DNA from: Massilia forsythiae
GTDB taxonomy: Bacteria; Pseudomonadota; Gammaproteobacteria; Burkholderiales; Burkholderiaceae_D
DNA length: 64,000 bases
Assembly (NCBI RefSeq): GCF_012849555.1
Contig: NZ_CP051685.1
Location: 248,001 to 312,000, forward strand
Direction of reading: 5' to 3'
The notes under the pieces are model-generated. The model made no database searches, had not been told where the DNA came from, and saw only the letters and a list, made by a program, of their open reading frames with translations. Positions 395-51,298 of this stretch are shown piece after piece. Within the stretch, counting starts at the first letter, position 1; every line of letters begins with the position of its first letter. Both the position numbers and the translations under genes were made by a program.

Positions 395-850
395 TTATTT
401 CTGGGTGCTGCTCTGGGCGGCGAAGGTCAGCCTGTCGTAGCCGGCCAGGCGCGCTGCTTCCAGCACGTTGATCACCATCTGGTGCATGGCGAACTGGTCG
501 GCGTTGACGATCACCACCGGGTCGCGCGCCGGCTGCGCCAGGGGCTGGCCATCGGCGCCGGTAGTGGCGGCGCGCTTGAGGTCCTCGGCCAGGCCGGCCA
601 CGCCGTGGAACGAGACGGGCACGTTGTTGACCGTGTAGTTACCCTTGGCGTCGACCGTGACGTTGATCTCGAACGGCTTGTCGACCGCCTTGGCGGCGTC
701 GGCGGTCGGCAGCGTGATCTGCAGTTCGGTGAACTTGCTGTAGGTGGTCGTGACCATCAGGAAGATCAGCACCACCAGCAGCACGTCGATGAACGGGATC
801 AGGTTGATTTCCGGATCCTCGCGCTTGCGGCCGCGGCGAAAGTCGATCAT
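395..850 (-). CDS. exbD: ExbD/TolR-family biopolymer transport protein
   Basis: Predicted 151-residue partner of an ExbB/TolQ-type proton channel that powers TonB or Tol-Pal at the inner membrane. It has a short cytoplasmic tail, one membrane segment (about residues 16-36, [19 protein letters not shown]) with the conserved membrane aspartate at Asp22, then a periplasmic domain. The start overlaps the exbB stop by four bases (ATGA), indicating translational coupling. Length is normal. The sequence does not separate ExbD from TolR with certainty; the neighbouring lpxK favours the ExbBD pair often found there. Confidence 0.93.
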
Positions 851-1452
851 TTGCGCGCACCGTGGACGACGTCGACGAACTTCACCGACTGCAGTTCCAT
901 GTCGATGATGAAGCTGTCGACCAGCGCGCGGAAGTGGCGGTAGGCGACCAGGGTCGGCATCGCGATCGCCAGGCCGAAGCCGGTGTTGTACAGCGCCACC
1001 GAGATGCCGTGCGCCAGCTGGGCCGGGTTGGCGCCGCTGGCGTTCTGGGCGCCGAAGATCTCGATCATGCCGACCACGGTGCCGAACAGACCCATCAGCG
1101 GCGCCAGCGAGGCGATGGTGCCGAGCGTGGTGAGGAAACGCTCGAGCACGTGCGCCACGCCCCTGCCCGCTTCCTCGATCGATTCCTTCATCACGTCGCG
1201 CGGCGCGTCGACGTTGCGCAGCGCCGCCGCCAGCACGGTGCCGAGCGGCGAATTCTGCTGCAGCTTGTCGATGATGTCGGGCGTGACCTTACCGCCGCGA
1301 TACACCTGGATGACTTCGTCGAGCAGCTGGCGCGGCAGGATCTTTTCGCGACGCAGGTAGATCAGGCGTTCGACGATCAGGGCGAGGGCGATGACGGAAG
1401 CGAGCAGCAGGAACCAGATGGGCCAGCCGGCCGCTTGGAGAATGGCGAGCAA
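847..1452 (-). CDS. exbB: ExbB/TolQ/MotA-family proton channel protein
   Basis: Inner-membrane proton-channel subunit working with the ExbD encoded just downstream. From the TTG at 1452 the product is 201 residues, MLAILQAAGWPIWFLLLAS..., with one membrane segment at residues 9-30 and two near the C-terminus (TLGTIASLAPLMGLFGTVV and the ISVALYNTGFGLAIAMP region), the usual ExbB topology. I chose this TTG because GGGAG lies six bases upstream and the protein then begins as relatives do. A longer reading to 1569 would add 39 residues that do not look like ExbB and would run into the repeat array. Confidence 0.9.
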   Translation of the reverse strand: MLAILQAAGWPIWFLLLASVIALALIVERLIYLRREKILPRQLLDEVIQVYRGGKVTPDIIDKLQQNSPLGTVLAAALRNVDAPRDVMKESIEEAGRGVAHVLERFLTTLGTIASLAPLMGLFGTVVGMIEIFGAQNASGANPAQLAHGISVALYNTGFGLAIAMPTLVAYRHFRALVDSFIIDMELQSVKFVDVVHGARK

Positions 1453-2665
1453 AACGAACTCCCGAATAAATGGAAAAACAACGCGACAGGGAATTGCGCA
1501 ATGTAACGTGTCGGCCGCTTTGCGGCAAGTAGGGTTCTGCACACATTCTGTGGATAAAAGTGTGTGCAATGGACCTCTCCACCGACGATGCCGTTGATTC
1601 TTATAGGATATTCTTCAGTGCGCAAAAAGACGGCATCCAAAATATCGCATTGCCAGAAGTAACTTTTTGATGCTCAAGAGATGTAGTTGCCCACAATTTC
1701 TGTGGATAGATGTGTGCGGAAGTTCATTTCCAAATAGCAAGTCATTGATTTTATTAAGAAATGTAATTCCGCGCAATAAATGGGCAGCTTGAATCGGACT
1801 ACATCTGTGCTCATGACAAAGGCTTTTTCACAATTTATGTGGATAAAATTGTGTGCAAGGGTATGTTGTGAACTCTAAGTAATTGATTTTAAAAACTTAT
1901 CAATCTCCGCCTAATTTTTGCGCATACTGCATGTTCGCAGCATGGCTGGCAGCGGCCGGAGCCAGTCGGCAGCGCGCGCGCCCTACCCAACATCCGCCAG
2001 AATATGCGCCGGGCATAGCGCATGACTGTTCACAAAAACTGTGGAAAAAGATGTGAGCAAACATTTCCTTCTCGATGCAAGCCTTTGATTCGAAGAGATT
2101 TTTCTGCATTCGCCTGCTTTTGAGGCATTCGGCGCTTGTCCACATGCCGATAGTGGCTGCTCACCGTACGAGGCCCCATGGGGAAAGCTGCCGATCGTAA
2201 CTGGTATAGTGCTGCCTGCCACGGCGTCTCGAGCAGGCCCGCACAAGCCATTGCGGCTTTGCTGCGAGTCAATGAGCACCGACGACTTCGCGGGATCGGT
2301 TCAGCAGGGACACGATCAGCGATACGCACCGGTATTCACATAAATTGTGGAAAACGATGTGAGCAAGCGGCCTCATCGGCACCTAAGTGTTTGATTACAT
2401 TAAGAAACATTTATCCGCCTCTATTTTAGGCAGATGGAATAATTCACTTCCTCACAATTTCTGTGGATAAGATTGTGGCCAACTGATCCGCGCTGGAGGG
2501 AAGTGTTTGATACATAAAGGAATTTTGTTTCTGCATCGAAATCAAGCAGGATGATTTATCCATATAAATCAATAGCTTAGGATAAGTCTAGAAACAAGCT
2601 AAAAAATGATGAATCTTGCATCACCCATGATCTTTTTTGTGGACAGTTTTCATTAGCATATTGAT
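1453..2665. other. AT-rich intergenic region carrying the composite repeat array
   Basis: About 1.2 kb with no credible gene, clearly richer in A+T than the genes on both sides. The short open frames inside show no RBS and no recognisable protein. It must contain the promoters of exbB (minus) and xseA (plus). Its main content is six copies of an approximately 85-base composite repeat, described as a separate feature. Stretches at about 1925-2025 and 2110-2330 are GC-richer fillers between copies. Confidence 0.85.
1538..2535 (+). repeat. Six directly oriented composite repeats, each with a DnaA-box-like core inside a dyad
   Basis: Cores lie near 1549 (TGTGGATAA), 1701 (TGTGGATAG), 1839 (TGTGGATAA), 2040 (TGTGGAAAA), 2346 (TGTGGAAAA) and 2463 (TGTGGATAA), all in one orientation; the complement, TTATCCACA, is the classical DnaA box. 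Every core sits between inverted arms (for example TGCACACA/TGTGTGCA at 1538-1568 and CACAATTT/AAATTGTG at 1830-1852). About 25-30 bases after each dyad comes a second AT-rich element, AAGTnnTTGATT followed by TTAAGAAA-like sequence (near 1593, 1740, 1876, 2088, 2386, 2501). Spacing is irregular, 117-306 bases. A weak seventh core, TTTTGTGGACAG, lies at 2636. Function unknown: DnaA binding or titration is possible. Confidence 0.8.
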
Positions 2666-4027
2666 ATGTTCAGCATCGACCAAACCGATCCGGCCTATAC
2701 CGCGCCCCCTGTCCTGACCGTCACCTCGCTCAATCAACAGGTGGCGCGCCTGCTCGAACGTTCGTTTCCCCTGGTCTGGATCGGCGGCGAAATCTCGAAC
2801 TTCAAGCGCGCCGCCTCCGGCCACTGGTACTTCACGCTGAAGGACGATGCCGCCCAGGTGCGCGCCGTGATGTTCCGCGGCCGCGCCCAGTTCGCCGGCT
2901 TCGTGCCGCGCGAAGGCGACAAGGTCGAAGTGCGCGCGCTGGTTACGCTGTACGGCGCACGTGGGGACTACCAGATCAACGTCGAGGCGATCCGCCGCGC
3001 CGGGGTCGGCGCGCTATACGAAGCCTTTTTGCGCCTGAAGGAAAAACTGGCGGCGCAGGGCCTGTTCGACGAAGGGAAGAAGCGTCCCCTGCCCCTGTTT
3101 ACCCGCAGCATCGGCATCGTCACCAGCCCGCAGGCGGCGGCCCTGCGCGACGTGCTCACGGCCTTGCGGCGGCGCGCCCCGCACGTGCGCGTGGTGCTGT
3201 ATCCGGCGCCGGTGCAGGGCCAGCTGGCGGCGGAAAAGATCGCCGGCGCGATCGCCACCGCCTCGCGCCGCGCCGAGGTCGACGTGCTGATCGTGTGCCG
3301 CGGCGGCGGTTCGATCGAAGACTTGTGGAGCTTCAACGAGGAAGCGGTGGCGCGCGCCATCGCCGCCTGCGCCATGCCGGTGATTTCCGGCGTCGGCCAC
3401 GAGACCGACTTCACCATCGCCGACTTCGCCGCCGACCTGCGCGCCGCCACCCCGACCGCCGCCGCCGAGCTGGCCTCCACCGCACGCGCCGACTGGCTGG
3501 CCTCGCTCGAAGCCGATGCCGGCGACCTGCGGCGCGCCATGGAACGCATCCTCGGCAATGCCGGCCAGGCTCTCGACAGTCTCAGCCGCCGCCTGCTGAG
3601 CCCGGCGGCCCAGATCGCCCACCAGCGCCTGAAACTGCTGGGCATGGCTAGCAGCCTGACCCACGCGGTGCGCGCGCCGCTGAACCGCCACGGCGTGCTG
3701 CTGGCGCAACTGCAGCAGCGCTGGGCGCGCCACCGCCCCGATTCGCGCGCCATGCGCACCCAGCTGGCATCCGAGCGACGCCATCTGGTGGCCGGCATGG
3801 GGGGCCAGTTGCGCCAGCGGCGCGAGGCGCTGGCGGCCCTGTCCGCCCAGCTCGAACTGCTGAATCCGCAGCGCACGCTGGAGCGCGGCTATGCCATCGT
3901 CAGCGACGCCAAGGGCAAGGTACTGCGCTCGCCGTCCAGGATCAGGCCGCGCGACGTGCTGACGGTGCGCCTGGCCGACGGCAGCGCCGCGGTCGGCGTC
4001 GCCAGCGTGCAGGACGTGCTCGAATAA
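2666..4027 (+). CDS. xseA: Exodeoxyribonuclease VII large subunit
   Basis: Catalytic subunit of exonuclease VII, which degrades single-stranded DNA in both directions into oligonucleotides; it needs the small subunit XseB, not seen in this window. The 453-residue product has the N-terminal OB-fold region (about 15-110, with [22 protein letters not shown]), the catalytic domain with [16 protein letters not shown] and [19 protein letters not shown], then a helical region and the C-terminal ERGYAIV segment. Length is normal. It begins directly after the repeat array and is followed by sodB, an order also seen in related bacteria. Confidence 0.96.
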
Positions 4028-9687: not shown

Positions 9688-10107
9688 TCATTTCGGCGGC
9701 TCGGGCGACTGCGGGAAATGCGGGATCGCCTGGTCGAGGCACACCCATTGCTGTGCGCTGGCGGCGTAGATGTCGAGCATCGGCTTGAATGCCGACGTGT
9801 CGTCCAGCGAAGGAAAGCGGATCGAGGTGATGTCCGGATGCGCCTCGCTGCTGGTGAACAGGGGCGTGCCGCATTCGGCGCAAAAACTGCGGGTGGCGAG
9901 GCCGCCGCTGCTGGCGCGCACGGCATAGGCCTTGGGCGTGCCGCTGACCCGGAGGTCCTCGGTCTTGGCGACGATGCCCGATGCGAACGGTGCGCCGCTC
10001 GAGCGCTGGCAATCGATGCAATGGCAGTTGAGCATGGCGATCGGCTCGCGTTCGCCCGTGTAGCGGATCGCGCCGCATGCGCATCCGCCCGAATAAGGCA
10101 GCTTCAT
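9688..10107 (-). CDS. GFA-family (CENP-V fold) zinc-binding protein
   Basis: 139 residues with the zinc-ligand cysteines of the glutathione-dependent formaldehyde-activating enzyme fold: Cys9 and Cys11 (GGCACG), Cys28, Cys30 and Cys33 (LNCHCIDCQRSSG), and the FCAECGTPLF pair. Most members of this broad family have no proven activity, so the name should not be read as formaldehyde metabolism. It lies 36 bases after the distal DsbA gene in the same direction and may be the last gene of that operon. Convergent with the sensor kinase gene. Confidence 0.9.
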   Translation of the reverse strand: MKLPYSGGCACGAIRYTGEREPIAMLNCHCIDCQRSSGAPFASGIVAKTEDLRVSGTPKAYAVRASSGGLATRSFCAECGTPLFTSSEAHPDITSIRFPSLDDTSAFKPMLDIYAASAQQWVCLDQAIPHFPQSPEPPK

Positions 10108-35418: not shown

Positions 35419-35724
35419 TCAGTCTTCGATGATCGGCTGCCCGACCATCGCGTCGACCCGCTCGCGCAACTGCTTGCCCGGCTTGAAGTGGGGCACCCGT
35501 TTTTCGGGCACCATCACCTTGTCGCCGGACTTCGGGTTGCGGCCGATGCGGGGCGGCCGGCTGTTCAGCGCGAAGCTGCCGAAACCACGGATCTCGATGC
35601 GCTGCCCGGTCGCCAGGGCGTTGGTCATCGCATCGAGGATGGTCTTGACGGCGTACTCCGCATCCTTGGCCACGAGCTGGGAATAACGCTCGGCCAGGCG
35701 GTTGATCAGCTCGGACTTGGTCAT
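35419..35724 (-). CDS. ihfB: Integration host factor subunit beta
   Basis: DNA-bending protein that pairs with IhfA in replication, recombination and promoter architecture. 101 residues of the HU/IHF fold: [45 protein letters not shown] with the beta-arm and the proline region that intercalates into DNA, and [19 protein letters not shown]. Lies 27 bases after rpsA, the normal order. Confidence 0.96.
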
Positions 35725-50939: not shown

Positions 50940-51298
50940 GGGGGCGACCTGGTTTCGACGTGGGTTGCAAAGCAGCGCAGGGCATACCGAGGACTGGTTA
51001 CCTCGTAAATACATCCAGAAATCAATAACTGCAAACGATAACTCGTACGCACTCGCAGCTTAATTGCTGCTAGCTCTACACTACCTCGCCTCTGGGGTGG
51101 GCCGCAAGGCAAGTAGAGTCATTTACAGAGGCTAGGACTCGACCGGGTTACTTGGTCGCTTCCGAAATTTAAGGTAACTCGCTGGTATGCAGGGTGCACG
51201 TCCCCGTCGTATCGGTTAAATCAAAAGACAGTGCTAAGTATGTAGAACTGTCTGTAGAGTGCTTGCGGACGAGGGTTCGATTCCCTCCGCCTCCACCA
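50940..51298 (+). ncRNA. ssrA: Transfer-messenger RNA (tmRNA)
   Basis: One-piece tmRNA for ribosome rescue with SmpB. The 5' GGGGGCGACCTGGTTTCGAC and 3' GGTTCGATTCCCTCCGCCTC-CACCA pair to form the acceptor stem (GGGGGCG with CGCCTCC), with a T-arm and encoded CCA. The tag frame runs from GCA 51031 to TAA 51061-51063 and encodes ANDNSYALAA, ending in the LAA recognised by ClpXP. Pseudoknot regions follow. A -10-like TACAAT at 50918-50923 lies 17 bases before the 5' end. It is followed by a very long terminator hairpin. Confidence 0.97.

Follow-up and report, generated by a model that had tools for sequence, protein, structure and literature searches.

A tandem array of three-box units between exbB and xseA

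The window, the whole stretch of 64,000 nucleotides of the Massilia forsythiae chromosome that was analysed, contains an AT-rich gap of about 1 kb (positions 1453-2665) between an exbB/tolQ-family gene and xseA. A first-pass annotation of this DNA had described in the gap six TGTGGAWAA/G cores in one orientation, each within the same flanking structure and each resembling a DnaA box. Closer analysis confirmed the flanking genes and the repeats: the cores start at 1549, 1701, 1838, 2040, 2346 and 2462, the array as such extends from about 1535 to 2512, and the structure shared around each core comprises two more DnaA boxes and a site of the IHF consensus type. Since boxes I and III flank each core, the cores described earlier represent the middle box (box II) of a triplet. 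The features of the locus are listed below with the scores of a unit model of 68 positions, which was trained exclusively on 56 units, taken from the window and from related beta-proteobacteria; these units were picked for TTGAT, so the IHF columns of the model carry no independent evidence.

847..1452, - strand: exbB/tolQ-family gene, left neighbour, divergent from xseA (TIGR02796, under the equivalog cut-off)
1535..1569, + strand: unit 1 DARS-type core, unit model 46.8 bits; box I 1535-1543 TTCTGCACA, box II 1549-1557 TGTGGATAA, box III 1561-1569 TGTGTGCAA
1587-1599, + strand: unit 1 IHF-like site, weak
1687..1721, + strand: unit 2 DARS-type core, 42.1 bits; boxes 1687-1695, 1701-1709, 1713-1721
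1738..1750, + strand: unit 2 IHF consensus site, CAAGTCATTGATT, matching YAANNNNTTGATW
1824..1858, + strand: unit 3 DARS-type core, the best unit, 54.1 bits; boxes 1824-1832, 1838-1846, 1850-1858
1876..1888, + strand: unit 3 IHF consensus site, TAAGTAATTGATT
2026..2060, + strand: unit 4 DARS-type core, 40.9 bits; boxes 2026-2034, 2040-2048, 2052-2060
2078..2090, + strand: unit 4 IHF consensus site, CAAGCCTTTGATT
2332..2366, + strand: unit 5 DARS-type core, 43 bits; boxes 2332-2340, 2346-2354, 2358-2366
2384..2396, + strand: unit 5 IHF consensus site, TAAGTGTTTGATT
2448..2482, + strand: unit 6 DARS-type core, closest to xseA, 43.1 bits; boxes 2448-2456, 2462-2470, 2474-2482
2500..2512, + strand: unit 6 IHF-like site with one mismatch, GAAGTGTTTGATA
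2666..4027, + strand: xseA, exonuclease VII large subunit, the conserved right neighbour (TIGR00237, 478 bits)

On the + strand, all six units consist of a forward box I (TTNNNCACA or a close variant), 5 bp, a reverse box II (TGTGGAWAA), 3 bp and a reverse box III (TGTGNGCAA or a close variant). Every unit thus has the geometry 9-5-9-3-9, followed 16-17 bp past box III by an IHF-type site. The 42-nt repeats share 62-81% identity with the reference copy. With up to three mismatches, the pattern CACA-N5-TGTGGANAA-N3-TGTG matched ten times in the window, against 0.16 matches expected in shuffles. The genome-wide search with the three-box pattern gave ten matches, seven of them in the exbB-xseA gap and three at 2.05 and 4.20 Mb, versus none for a reversed-pattern control.

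Counted from the first base of box II, TTGAT follows at 44 or 45 nt in all six units, and the full YAANNNNTTGATW is exact in four of them. When units from the window and its relatives were counted without selection for TTGAT, 75 of 87 carried it at this offset, and the gaps contained 47 matches to the IHF consensus against 0.8 expected. The consensus used, TAAnnnnTTGATW, is that printed in PMC8682772, and it is given in reverse in PMC4585315.

A search of positions 1400-2700 for structured RNA revealed no Rfam match at E<=1. CRP-type sites were considered and rejected, because the half-site order of CRP is TGTGA-N6-TCACA and the order found here is CACA-N5-TGTG.

Comparison with the DnaA-binding loci of E. 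coli

The DARS elements of E. coli, DARS1 and DARS2, convert ADP-DnaA to ATP-DnaA. In their cores box I is opposed to boxes II and III, the spacing is equal in both DARSs, and the head-to-head pair of boxes I and II is essential (PMC5742627, PMC10380432). As read from the MG1655 sequence, the DARS1 core is TTATCCACT-ATTCC-TGTGGATAA-CCA-TGTGTATTA and the DARS2 core, assigned here to L098:636-670, is TTATTCACC-TTTTC-TGTGGATAG-AGT-TGTGAAGAA. The array of M. forsythiae likewise has an opposed box I in six of six units, 5- and 3-bp spacing, an IHF site beside the core (as in DARS2) and an intergenic seat at a conserved position between oriC and the terminus. In a search of 110 kb, the unit model picked up the E. 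coli DARS2 core with 20 bits (E 6e-5 for this length); DARS1, which has a poorer box I, and datA were not listed in this search.

DARS2 shares with the array the orientation and spacing of the three-box core and an intergenic, mid-arm location 5' of a DNA-repair gene (mutH). It differs in having one core rather than six, and its activity also depends on essential Fis sites, whose consensus is too weak for scoring. DARS1 has the same core orientation and spacing and is located mid-arm, 5' of uvrB, but it contains a single core and has no IHF site at the matching offset. DARS-type cores recur 5' of DNA-repair genes in the orientation of the gene, namely uvrB and mutH in E. coli (L097, L098) and xseA in beta-proteobacteria, and in M. 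forsythiae a pair flanks a uvrD-like gene. Repair may thus be tied to the state of DnaA.

Beyond the DARS2 core, two near-consensus IHF sites lie 3 bp apart (L098 729 and 745), in agreement with the 3-bp distance between IBS1 and IBS2 of DARS2 (PMC4245941). IBS1 and the IHF sites of the array are both on the box III side and have the same orientation, but the distance to box III is about 58 bp in DARS2 and 16-17 bp in the array units. Because this difference corresponds to about four helical turns, the bend may point the same way as in DARS2, as suggested by a single comparison that does not amount to proof.

The datA locus of E. coli is also a DnaA-box cluster with an IHF site, and the first-pass annotation had listed a DnaA titration site among its suggestions. 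As a titration site or datA-like sink, the 18 boxes of the array would bind DnaA and, together with IHF, lower the level of free or ATP-bound DnaA and delay initiation. The concentration of many boxes within 1 kb is consistent with such a role, as are the IHF sites between successive box groups, which recall the site between boxes 2 and 3 of datA (PMC5742627); E. coli manages with one core per locus, so the array could serve titration. However, a sink has no need for the head-to-head spacing that is invariant in about 90 units or for a fixed IHF spacing. datA stimulates the hydrolysis of ATP, not the release of ADP, no 9-5-9-3-9 triplet was found in it, and the unit model did not list it. It is also close to the origin, at 0.20 of the arm, whereas the array is mid-arm (0.58), so the datA combination of a box arrangement with an IHF site near oriC is not that of the array. 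The three-box geometry, which does not vary, and the constant distance to the IHF site go beyond what pure titration would require, and we consider this explanation unlikely.

Conservation of the core upstream of xseA

Relatives were sampled as 80 named loci fetched by XseA. The same gap in related genomes, which the first-pass annotation had singled out for comparison, was found to carry a core or an array 5' of xseA across genera. A triplet with at most three mismatches is present within 600 nt 5' of xseA in 44 of the 80 loci, in xseA orientation in all 44, and the reversed-sequence control gave none below six mismatches. Arrays of 4-7 triplets were found in Janthinobacterium, Duganella, Massilia, Pseudoduganella, Undibacterium and the locus L017, labelled Herbaspirillum sp. 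SJZ107. The 17 loci of this array group, among which are the window and two loci with a single unit, have 93 triplets, 63 of them with an IHF site at the fixed offset. Outside the array group, each of 27 further beta-proteobacterial loci contains one triplet, and one of the 27 has an IHF site at this offset.

The nearest named relative is L017, whose XseA is 87% identical to that of the window. Between the two loci, identity is 90% for the cores and 73% for the IHF sites, compared with 31% for the core-IHF linker and 46% for the remaining gap DNA, and the core of unit 6 is identical to an L017 core at 35 of 35 positions. In this comparison, the predicted binding sites and their spacing are kept, while the other gap DNA drifts. 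In the family of the window, all 116 sampled genomes have at least one match and up to 12; one to three matches per genome are usual in the rest of the order, and 51 of 143 genomes of the class have matches at a stricter cut-off. The simplest history is a single ancestral core 5' of xseA whose copies multiplied later, while an IHF site was gained or became stronger. Two genomes outside the family, G339 and G193, have seven and five matches, some of which are clustered (G339:C171, G193:C27) and are possible independent arrays.

The location of the triplets raises the question of a regulatory region of xseA, perhaps also of exbB, in which DnaA bound upstream would couple exonuclease VII expression to DnaA state. 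This would account for the shared orientation in the 44 loci with a good triplet, and the E. coli DARS cores also precede uvrB and mutH in gene orientation. Nevertheless, the array reaches about 1.1 kb back from xseA, a single core would suffice for such control, and the comparable cores found at 2.05 and 4.20 Mb adjoin other genes, which makes this role rather improbable.

Chromosomal position of the array

In agreement with the first-pass annotation, dnaA is not near the array; it is located at C1:2.202 Mb, 1.95 Mb away. The GC skew proposed earlier as a check for an origin was too weak to place one when sampled in 20-kb stretches, and KOPS polarity was used for this reason. It switches at about 1.95-2.05 Mb and about 5.12-5.2 Mb, with no switch at 0.25 Mb. 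Of the 360 kb scanned (1.86-2.22 Mb), only one kilobase is densely populated with DnaA boxes. It is the gap between hemE and priA at 2.051 Mb on C1 (L011:4884-5390), which has about eight DnaA boxes, an AT-rich tract and IHF-like sites, as well as one DARS-spaced triplet. This gap, about 0.15 Mb from dnaA, is likely to be oriC. Like oriC, the array is AT-rich and combines DnaA boxes with sites of the IHF type, but it differs in its head-to-head box pairs, which are typical of DARS, and in the lack of a polarity switch. The unlinked origin suggested earlier was not borne out, because the polarity switch and the densest DnaA-box cluster are about 1.8 Mb away and dnaA 1.95 Mb away. Although directly repeated DnaA boxes in an AT-rich gap could also mark a second origin or an iteron array left by a plasmid, either is very improbable given the polarity switch and dense boxes elsewhere, the absence of a replication-initiator gene beside the array, and the occupation of the same gap across genera, which argues against a recent plasmid insertion.

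The array is 1.80 Mb from the 2.051-Mb cluster, which corresponds to 0.58 of the arm. In ten complete genomes, its distance from dnaA is 0.29-0.72 of the arm, with a median of 0.62 (genome sizes rounded); because these genomes share ancestry, the ten values are not independent. The corresponding positions in E. coli, calculated from the coordinate of oriC, are 0.66 for DARS1, 0.41 for DARS2 and 0.20 for datA. The units and xseA oppose the replication fork in all ten complete genomes (G000, G001, G026, G028, G048, G054, G056, G070, G096 and G106), an orientation that may reflect mere shared descent.

Two more DARS-type triplets are located on the other chromosome arm (0.69) at G000 C1:4,202,553 and 4,205,070 (L010:7540-7580 and 10059-10095, - strand). 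They flank a UvrD/Rep-type helicase gene (under the equivalog cut-offs) and have in common a longer flanking repeat, TTGACA..CGGAAG..ATGCGG.TTTCAACAA.

A proposed role in DnaA recharging

The genome of M. forsythiae encodes proteins passing the NCBIfam cut-offs of the DnaA, Hda, IhfA and IhfB models. The translated DnaA has the domain IV signature GGRDHTTVLHAVRKI, the conserved box-recognition motif. The gene ihfB, for a subunit of the proposed gate protein IHF, is located in the window at 35455-35724 (- strand), 33 kb from the array. The window also contains a tmRNA gene at 50940-51298 (+ strand) with the tag DNSYALAA.

Geometry, conservation and position support two proposals of the first-pass annotation, that the cores are DnaA boxes and that the gap is a distal replication control locus. 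Together with the IHF-site spacing and the genes for DnaA, Hda, IhfA and IhfB, they suggest that the array represents a DARS-type locus, amplified and linked to IHF, that would recharge ADP-DnaA and raise the level of ATP-DnaA, with a probability of about two in three. From these features we infer that DnaA and IHF bind the units, that nucleotide is exchanged there and that initiation is affected. In the proposed mechanism, ADP-DnaA would bind boxes I and II of each unit, and because these boxes face each other, two AAA+ domains would come into head-to-head contact. The complex would be stabilised by a third DnaA, bound to box III, and IHF, bound 16-17 bp beyond this box, would bend the DNA and gate the complex. 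ADP would then be released, and apo-DnaA would leave and reload with ATP, until rising ATP-DnaA triggers initiation at the distant oriC. Six tandem units would provide more exchange capacity per locus, and passage of the fork would duplicate the mid-arm locus, doubling this capacity and timing the next initiation.

E. coli, in which the DARS elements have been studied in detail, has a single core at each DARS locus. The present findings suggest that a known switch for timing in the cell cycle has been amplified in the Massilia/Janthinobacterium/Duganella/Undibacterium group. More tentatively, an ancestral lone DARS core 5' of xseA might have been converted, in one beta-proteobacterial clade, to a tandem array whose cores each have their own IHF switch, with the copy number of the array setting the rate of DnaA recharging as the main initiation timer. 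Reviews mention DARS-like sequences in many proteobacteria and credit them to the 2009 paper that first described DARS. Our literature search, of incomplete coverage, revealed no paper on DARS in Burkholderiales or on DnaA boxes at xseA, and no account of a tandem core array, an IHF site for each core or a conserved seat 5' of xseA.

A conserved core array with built-in IHF sites would show that ATP-DnaA recharging is an old and evolvable timing device outside the enterics. The loci with one to seven cores at the same position would form a natural copy-number series for testing how recharging capacity sets initiation. With this array, the beta-proteobacteria gain a concrete candidate for an element of the DnaA cycle.
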